This document shows positions 21,344 to 32,539 of a stretch of DNA of 32,539 bases, piece by piece. The notes under the pieces were generated by a model. The model searched no databases. It worked only from the letters and a program-made list of their open reading frames with translations, and was not told the DNA's origin. The DNA is from Candidatus Latescibacterota bacterium (GTDB taxonomy: Bacteria > Latescibacterota > UBA2968). Numbering within the stretch: position 1 is the first letter of the stretch; each line of letters begins with the position of its first letter. The stretch lies in the NCBI GenBank assembly GCA_022821275.1, contig JAJEDY010000032.1, positions 1-32,539 of the forward strand, written 5' to 3'. The position numbers and the translations under genes were made by a program.

Positions 21344-21374
21344 GGAGCGAGAGACCAGGGGCTGTCGCTTATAA

Positions 21375-21420
21375 TAAAAAAACCGATCTCTGAAGTTATA
21401 GTGATCGGTTTTTTTATTTT
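21375..21420 (+). terminator. rho-independent terminator of the envelope cluster
   Basis: AAAACCGATC pairs with GATCGGTTTT (core 21381-21388 / 21403-21410) around a 14-nt loop and runs into a long T tract. The A-rich 5' side makes it potentially bidirectional. Confidence 0.85.
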
Positions 21421-30772: not shown

Positions 30773-32410
30773 ATGGCAATAAAAAAATCCCAACTCTATT
30801 CATCACTCTGGCAAAGTTGCGATGAGTTGCGCGGTGGTATGGACGCTTCGCAGTACAAGGATTATGTGCTGACACTGCTGTTCATGAAATATATCTCGGA
30901 CAGGTACGCGGGCGATCCAGACGCACTCATTGAAGTGCCCGATGGGGGCAGTTTTGCCGATATGGCTAACCTGAAGGGCGACAAGGAGATCGGCGATAAA
31001 ATTAACAAGATTATTAGTCGTCTCGCCGAGGCCAACGATCTCCAGGGTGTCATTGATCTGGCCGACTTCAACGACGAGAGCAAACTCGGCGCGGGCAAGG
31101 AGATGCAGGATCGACTGTCGAAGTTGGTCGCCATATTCGAGGGCCTTGACCTGCCCGGCAATAGAGCAGAGGGCGATGATCTGCTGGGCGATGCGTACGA
31201 GTACTTGATGATGCATTTTGCCACTGAGTCCGGTAAGAACAAGGGGCAGTTTTACACGCCGGCTGAGGTGTCGCGCATTATGGCAAAGGTGGTGGGTATT
31301 GGCCCGCACACCCGTCAGGACGAGACGATTTACGATCCGACTTGTGGCTCTGGCTCGCTGTTGCTCAAGGCTGCGGACGAGGCACCAAATGGCATCACGA
31401 TATACGGGCAGGAGATGGACAATGCCACCTGGTCGCTCGCGCGAATGAATATGATTCTGCACGGTCATCCGACTGCCGAGTTGTATAATGGCAACGCGCT
31501 GGCCGCTCCGTATTTCAAGAACCAATACGACAATCTCAGGACCTTTGACTTTGCCGTCGCCAATCCGCCTTTTTCCGCCAAGGCCTGGTCCAGTGGTCTC
31601 AATCCAGAGCACGACGAGTACGGGCGCTTTGAATACGGTATTCCCCCGGAAAAGAATGGCGACTATGCCTTTCTCCTGCACCTTATTACGTCGCTCAAGA
31701 GCAAAGGCAAGGGTGCGATTATTATGCCGCACGGCGTATTGTTCCGCGGCAATAAGGAGGCGGATATCCGCAAAAATCTCATCGAGCGTGGCTTTATCAA
31801 AGGTATCATCGGCCTGCCAGCCAATTTGTTCTATGGCACCGGCATTCCCGCGTGTATCCTGGTCATTGATAAGGAGAATGCACATGCCCGCTCTGGTATC
31901 TTTATGATTGATGCGAGTAAGGGGTTTCTCAAGGATGGCAATAAGAACCGCTTGCGTGCGCAGGATATACACCGGATTGTCGATGTGTTTAACAAGCAGA
32001 TCGAATTGCCGCGCTATTCCCGCATGGTGCCGATGGCTGAGATCGCCAGTCCTGCTAACGACTACAATCTCAATATCCCGCGTTATATTGATTCCAGCGA
32101 CCCGGAAGATTTGCACGATCTCGATGCACATTTGCACGGCGGTATCCCAGACCGCGATCTGGACGCGCTGGGTGATTATTGGGAGGTTTTTCCTTCGTTG
32201 CGTCAGGCGTTATTTATCGGCAATGGTCGCGCGGGCTATAGCGAGGCTCGGGTTGAGACGGTGAAGGATGCTATTCTCGACCACGGCGAGTTCAAGTCCT
32301 ATATGACGCATGTCTCGGATGTTCTGGATGATTGGCAGGCGACCCACGAGCCGCTTCTCAAGGGGCTTGAGAAGGGGGATAATCCCAGGGATATTATTCA
32401 ATGCGAATAA
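30773..32410 (+). pseudogene. hsdM: type I restriction-modification DNA methylase subunit M, C-terminally truncated at an insertion
   Basis: 545 codons remain. The N-terminal HsdM helical domain (SLWQSCDELRGGMDASQYKDYVLTLLFMKY) and the N6-adenine methylase domain are intact: motif I DPTCGSGSLLLK (~187-198) for SAM, and catalytic motif IV ANPPF (~263-267). The C-terminal GIPPEKNGDYAFLLHLI, RGNKEADIRKNLIERG and YNLNIPRYIDSS blocks also fit. From memory of this subfamily, homologues continue for some 250 residues past the DIIQ point into a long helical C-terminal part. Here the frame ends two codons later (CE-stop) where IS-like sequence begins. No hsdS or hsdR is in the window. The methylase core may still fold, but assembly with HsdS/HsdR is likely lost. 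Confidence 0.82.
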
Positions 32411-32422
32411 AGAGTTGAAAAG

Positions 32423-32492
32423 ATCGCGTTCTTGCCAGATGATTGAGTAGTCAAAGCAATCATCAACCCTTAAAAAGGAGCAAGAACGCGAT
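32423..32492 (+). promoter_or_regulatory. two-tier hairpin covering the transposase start codon
   Basis: The outer stem ATCGCGTTCTTGC (32423-32435) / GCAAGAACGCGAT (32480-32492) is a perfect 13 bp and includes the first two bases of the ATG at 32491. The inner stem GATGATTG (32438-32445) / CAATCATC (32457-32464) is a perfect 8 bp. Transcripts entering from hsdM would fold and hide the start region, as described for other IS elements that resist read-through expression. Confidence 0.65.
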
Positions 32493-32539
32493 GGATTGGC
32501 AAGATAGACTCATCGGTTTGTATCTGTATATATGCCAGC
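32491..32539 (+). CDS. probable IS transposase, first 16 residues only
   Basis: The ATG at 32491 has AAGGAG at 32475-32480. Visible residues are MDWQDRLIGLYLYICQ, running off the window. This resembles the N terminus of DDE transposases of IS4-like elements (W-x-x-x-L-I-x-L-Y-L-Y-x-C), but the stretch is too short to fix a family. Context supports it: it follows an abrupt end of hsdM and a structured leader. Low-to-moderate confidence in the identity, higher that it is a real start. Confidence 0.5.
   Translation, partial: MDWQDRLIGLYLYICQ

Follow-up and report, generated by a model that had tools for sequence, protein, structure and literature searches.

Insertion sequences (IS) that land in an active gene risk being switched on by the promoter of that gene, and protection against such activation is known from a few model elements. 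The window analysed here, a whole stretch of 32,539 nucleotides from Candidatus Latescibacterota bacterium (contig JAJEDY010000032.1), ends just inside a transposase gene that lies downstream of hsdM, and thereby raises the question of how this gene would respond to transcripts arriving from outside. The initial annotation had proposed that the transposase leader folds into a double hairpin that hides the start codon in transcripts entering from hsdM, that transcripts started inside the element escape this fold, and that the logic is that of IS10 and IS50.

Comparison of copies within the same genome identified the 3' end of the window as the left end of a 985-bp element of the IS982 family. 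The genome contains eight left ends, identical from 32401 onward and differing upstream of this position, and ten right ends, all finishing in GCGT and diverging beyond; seven of the eight left ends could be paired by eye with a right end bearing an identical 5-bp target duplication. A complete copy on contig C57 (L006, 1501-2485; 985 bp) encodes a 295-aa transposase that scored 138.3 bits against the NCBIfam profile NF033520 (IS982 transposase; cut-off, 130), and residues M1, D112, D192 and E237 (IS982B numbering) are among the invariant columns in an alignment of 14 family proteins that includes the transposase of the window. According to the available portion of the IS982 review (PMC7335449), members of the family are ~1 kb long with a single ORF, short terminal inverted repeats (TIRs) and variable direct repeats; their CDS usually starts near position 83-111 (table in the review), and the TIRs begin with 5'-AC in 57 of 69 members. 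The element described here agrees with that portion of the review in transposase family, size of ~1 kb, single ORF (tnp at 91 to 978 of the element), short TIRs and direct repeats, which are 5 bp long upon insertion. The TIR begins with AC at the right end and with AT at the left end, and the right-end partner, ACGCGAATCAAGAGTAAAAAGC, equals the left TIR at 18 of 22 positions (counted by eye). Owing to a contig break at the repeat, only the first 16 codons of the transposase gene lie in the window. The copy on C57, the only complete one, is flanked by unlike duplications, TATCG on the left (1496-1500) and ATTCA on the right (2486-2490), whose partners sit on other contigs; this mismatch reflects either recombination between copies or an assembly chimera.

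Judged from the sequence, hsdM is disrupted by the IS982 element, which lies in the same orientation. The right end bearing the matching ATTCA is that on C57, where the hsdM reading frame resumes (G000:C57, from L006:2486), and in a relative, G007 (OX638329, a Latescibacteria metagenome-assembled genome), one unbroken hsdM frame of 816 aa spans both halves (92% identity for the N-terminal part, 87% for the C-terminal part). Since the element sits within hsdM in the same orientation, hsdM transcripts would enter the transposase leader directly, making read-through a real prospect. The upstream hsdM invoked in the initial annotation was thus correctly oriented and a plausible source of read-through, but it is not an intact neighbour, being itself interrupted by the element. 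As hsdM is cut here and intact in G007, the genome of the window probably lacks an active HsdM, the type I modification subunit. An hsdM relative in another genome (G008:C1:3476272-3478523) is also split, into frames of 548 and 317 aa, with query residues 479-545 left without a match.

Coordinates and supporting evidence for the features of the hsdM-IS982 junction in the window.
Feature	Position	Strand	Basis
hsdM 5' part, cut by the insertion, stop codon from the element	30773..32410	+	TIGR00497; intact frame in G007
Target duplication ATTCA, left copy, within hsdM	32396..32400	+	Same 5 bp after the right end on C57
Left terminal inverted repeat	32401..32422	+	ATGCGAATAAAGAGTTGAAAAG; common start of 8 left ends
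-35-like hexamer TTGAAA, inside terminal repeat	32415..32420	+	Consensus scan
Outer stem, 5' arm, within promoter spacer	32423..32435	+	Repeat search, fold
-10-like hexamer GATGAT, 17-nt spacer	32438..32443	+	Consensus scan
Inner stem, 5' arm	32438..32445	+	Repeat search, fold
Inner stem, 3' arm	32457..32464	+	Repeat search, fold
Shine-Dalgarno-like AAGGAG	32475..32480	+	Sequence; AAGG pairs with CCTT 32468-32471 (fold)
Outer stem, 3' arm, over last Shine-Dalgarno base and AU of start codon	32480..32492	+	Repeat search, fold
IS982 transposase gene start, first 16 codons	32491..32539	+	Complete 295-aa copy on C57; NF033520
Second complement of 5' arm, codons 3-5	32497..32504	+	TGGCAAGA vs 32430-32437

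The repeats on which the proposed hairpins were founded are present in the leader. The outer repeat is a perfect 13-bp stem that ends inside the ATG (32491-32493), so that the A and U of the start codon would be paired, and the inner repeat is a perfect 8-bp stem. The GGAG of the ribosome-binding site (32477-32480) lies at the junction, with its final G opening the outer 3' arm; AAGG (32475-32478) is also paired in the predicted fold, within a 4-bp hairpin. None of 2000 dinucleotide shuffles of 32401-32520 reached a perfect repeat of at least 13 bp, and only one reached at least 11 bp. Within a span of 90 bases, perfect repeats of at least 11 bp occur four times in the whole window; the longest short-span repeat of the window is a 16-bp perfect inverted repeat, AATAAAAAAACCGATC, at 21373-21418.

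A read-through transcript is predicted to fold over both the ribosome-binding site and the start codon. The 117-nt RNA from 32404 to 32520 has a folding energy of -35 kcal/mol (z = -4.47), a stability matched by none of 200 shuffles, and longer read-through RNA retains the double hairpin in both the minimum-energy and the centroid structures. These folds support the proposal that an hsdM-derived transcript would pair the start codon. The converse claim, that an internally started transcript escapes, also agreed with computation, as RNA from 32448 lacks the 5' arms and has an ordinary folding energy (z = +0.21). A search of the leader against Rfam returned no match up to an E value of 1. Two other explanations of the hairpin were ruled out: it sits inside of the terminal inverted repeat and is separate from it, the TIRs being distinct sequences at 32401-32422 and at the far end of the element, and no terminator-like site was found in a scan of the leader.

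Furthermore, a candidate internal promoter is placed such that its transcript would omit the 5' arms. A sigma-70-like site, TTGAAA-17-GATGAT, spans 32415-32443 and holds the outer 5' arm in the spacer between its two boxes; this placement therefore fits what the IS10/IS50 logic needs. If the site is used, transcription would start at ~32450, 7 nt past the -10-like hexamer, yielding a transcript that is devoid of both 5' arms and has a leader of ~40 nt. Equal scores were obtained for three other sites in the 200-base stretch, shuffles averaging 0.3, and the TTGAAA-17-GATGAT site is therefore a lead rather than proof. A GATC at 32422-32425 adjoins the -35-like box and is missing from the sister element described below; the promoters of IS10 and IS50 carry dam sites.

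Together, these features suggest how the leader could operate. RNA polymerase arriving from hsdM would produce a transcript whose ribosome-binding site and start region are paired with the 5' arm, and transposase would hardly be translated from this read-through RNA. Transcription from the element's own promoter would instead begin downstream of both 5' arms, ~40 nt short of the ATG, and give a translatable transcript. As a net effect, host promoters around the insertion point would be kept from activating the element.

We looked for the same leader in other copies. It is identical in all eight left ends of the genome, and a sister element in G007 (82% nucleotide identity) keeps it with changes: 12 of the 13 outer pairs are maintained, one U-A having become a C.A mismatch, and in place of the inner stem there is another perfect 8-bp repeat, GATTGAGG with its complement, at a displaced position. 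In both elements the first codons contain a second match to the 5' arm, 8 bp long in the window and 10 bp in the sister. The transposase frame of the sister is interrupted by stops, and selection there may therefore be relaxed. For covariation within the genus, a single full sister leader was available; L022 lacks the left end, and L028 and L029 are decayed. These last two, fragments of transposase starts in two relatives, are flanked by the same sequence and may therefore descend from one ancient insertion passed on vertically, or else belong to a different repeat. Aureibacter, the closest group beyond the genus (41% protein identity), has no long-range arm and carries a short hairpin over the ATG instead.

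We then turned to the family at large. After 17 IS982-family leaders had been folded, further ones were added to reach 36 leaders, which fall into 25 clusters at 75% identity, with start codons as annotated or aligned. Leader sequences differ wholly between subfamilies, and a 3' arm ending at or across the ATG occurs repeatedly. Its upstream arm is ATAAGTCGTGC at -56 in IS982B, TGACATAGCC at -68 in a Xenorhabdus copy, AACGCATAT at -45 in ISEfm1, GGACATAAC at -46 in ISAba9, AAAGTAGCG at -68 in a Porphyromonas copy, and GCCGAGAC at -41 and GGACAGGT at -46 in two Nostoc copies. Unrelated sequences thus make the same arrangement in most of the leaders examined. Neither of the two outcomes named in the initial annotation as refuting its reading came about: the other copies do have the inverted repeats, and these repeats are distinct from the TIRs.

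The arrangement was quantified with a pairing score, the mean probability that -4 to +3 pairs with anything at -25 or further upstream, which was defined only after the folds had been inspected. Its mean over 32 leaders was 0.66; shuffles reached 0.23, and sliding positions within the same elements 0.24. Over the 25 clusters (36 leaders) the mean was 0.60, with 13 clusters scoring at least 0.8; control genes averaged 0.23 in E. coli (43 genes, 2 at or above 0.8) and 0.31 on Lactococcus plasmids (47 genes, 5 at or above 0.8). Clusters and the 90 control genes differed significantly (Mann-Whitney p = 6.8e-5). Nine genes of other IS among the controls averaged 0.43, four of them reaching at least 0.5, and the trait is therefore not special to IS982.

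The effect of removing the upstream part of the leader was computed as well. In the full leader, the predicted openness of -12 to +3 was 0.26 for the IS982 clusters, compared to 0.49 for E. coli genes (42) and 0.45 for Lactococcus genes (47). Upon cutting at -35, it rose to 0.52 in IS982 and to 0.53 and 0.55 in the two gene sets, i.e., gains of 0.26 versus 0.04 and 0.10 (p = 1.2e-5 for the difference). Furthermore, 18 of the 22 arm-bearing clusters have the arm downstream of the -35 box and upstream of the predicted start, compared to 8.8 expected from shuffles (p = 4.4e-5). A second complement of the upstream strand, at least 7 bp long within codons 2-8, was found in 9 of 25 clusters versus 6 of 88 genes; the far-upstream control gave 2 of 25. 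In Geobacillus (L114), the second complement in the first codons reaches 14 bp.

The arrangement is not universal. Three of the 25 clusters, Aureibacter and two Streptomyces, are without such an arm, that of L062 at -93 is meaningless, and for some leaders the fold is no more stable than that of shuffles (L058, z = -0.87; L059, z = -0.39). A later set of 11 further copies comprised two without a start candidate, six repeats of known leaders (0.64-1.00) and three new leaders that scored 0.23 (L144), 0.00 (L174) and 0.24 (L170), thus providing no independent confirmation; in L144 the start was placed 17 codons downstream of the expected position, and L170 has a long hairpin finishing 5 nt before the ATG. 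Leader counts exclude L047 (frameshifted, without an annotated start), L065 (start not located by the script), the partial L067, L022 and L063, and the decayed L028 and L029. Scans of viral contigs for relatives gave matches in some and none in others; the viral loci L093, L095, L096, L098-L101, L103-L107 and L109-L113 were left out as partial or as 96-100% repeats of IS982B, ISEfm1 or the Porphyromonas element. RNA alignments by group showed that arm changes among close relatives are mostly uncompensated: the cyanobacterial pair has one both-sided change and no broken pair, the IS982B group has 2 broken pairs out of 20, and the Geobacillus group 7 out of 24, a number to which alignment gaps contribute. 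Alignments across subfamilies (groups 6 and 7) were set aside as not meaningful because the leaders do not align.

These uncompensated changes, along with the several members that lack the structure, are what would be expected of a chance or relic structure in the terminal region with no effect on expression, yet the failure of all 2000 shuffles to reproduce the repeat and the family-wide excess over genes make this explanation highly improbable. The inverted repeat could also act as DNA, serving as a subterminal binding site or as an operator recognised by the transposase or by a host protein, with RNA pairing being incidental. Any perfect palindromic pair forms a dyad in DNA as well, and the one-sided changes between close relatives (T replaced by C in a single arm, scored by eye) would leave a G.T wobble on just the other strand. 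However, across unrelated sequences the repeat stays with the start codon, as shown by the scores of real starts and sliding positions, and no common binding motif was found among the leaders by eye; we consider a DNA site quite unlikely.

A different possibility is that no transposase transcript escapes the hairpin, which would either damp translation constantly or belong to a switch controlled by a small RNA, like that of ISPpu9. There is precedent for a damper of this kind that is opened by antisense RNA in the available portion of the ISPpu9 study (PMC8450116), and the short hairpin over the ATG in the Aureibacter relative would be retained by internal transcripts. Nevertheless, transcripts from the best internal promoter-like site would start past both 5' arms, and placement of the arm in the spacer recurs across the IS982 family, so that we regard action on all transcripts as unlikely. 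We therefore favor, with good though not full confidence in what is a model built on predicted folds, the reading of the leader as a read-through filter that would shield the transposase from host promoters.

Such filters have known counterparts. Davis, Simons and Kleckner reportedly described in 1985 the protection of IS10 (Tn10) from external promoters. In IS10, an IS4-family element with a weak ribosome-binding site and the antisense RNA-OUT, transcripts from upstream were proposed to hide the transposase start region, and the native promoter lies inside the element. The element of the window is alike in the proposed hiding of the start region from upstream transcripts, but it has a transposase of another family and a long perfect stem that takes in the ATG itself. 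In IS50 (Tn5), also of the IS4 family and endowed with dam sites and an inhibitor protein, the transposase start of read-through RNA is masked by an inverted repeat located close to the outer end; the element described here belongs to IS982 instead, with its GATC being present in the window and absent from the sister. The attribution to IS10/IS50-type logic is backed by computation, namely the fold, the arm in the promoter-like spacer and the recurrence in the family.

Other elements share part of this design, as far as the available portions of the respective papers go. A stem-loop in IS200 occludes the ribosome-binding site and another terminates incoming transcripts (PMC3196728); the occluding stem-loop is alike, whereas the leader studied here has no terminator-like site that we could find and the transposase is unrelated. 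The 5'-UTR structure of ISPpu9 likewise buries the ribosome-binding site, and its weakening raised expression of a fusion 26-fold (PMC8450116), but there the native mRNA itself carries the structure, and an antisense small RNA opens it. More generally, 5' terminators of IS are said to prevent expression upon insertion in transcribed regions, with reference to work on Tn10 and IS200 (PMC2965389), and control of impinging transcription by mRNA structure is listed in PMC8944449. Expression control of Tn5/IS50 and IS10 is treated in PMC4265352 and PMC5006887, whose available portions do not describe the start-hiding mechanism; those of PMC10266640 and PMC11677980 held nothing informative on leader protection, and that of the IS982 review (PMC7335449) has no mention of a leader hairpin. 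No description of a start-occluding IS982 leader was found in the openly searchable literature, and an earlier one may exist in subscription papers.

The reading given in the initial annotation is thus right in kind. The element of the window adds a further case to an established protection logic, which the evidence extends to a likely common IS982 design. From the modelled folds, IS10/IS50-like protection appears to be a common IS982 trait; use of the promoter, the translation block in the cell and selection for shielding are what we infer from them. Evenly balanced, in our estimation, is the broader proposition that start-codon hiding is general in IS982, the arm in the -35/-10 spacer being excluded from native transcripts, the sequence turning over with pairing kept, and many members clamping the start from both sides via codons 2-8. 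If this design is general and its sequence changes freely, it would be selected as a structure, could be used to check the start codons of IS982 elements, and would provide a simple rule for which insertions stay silent.
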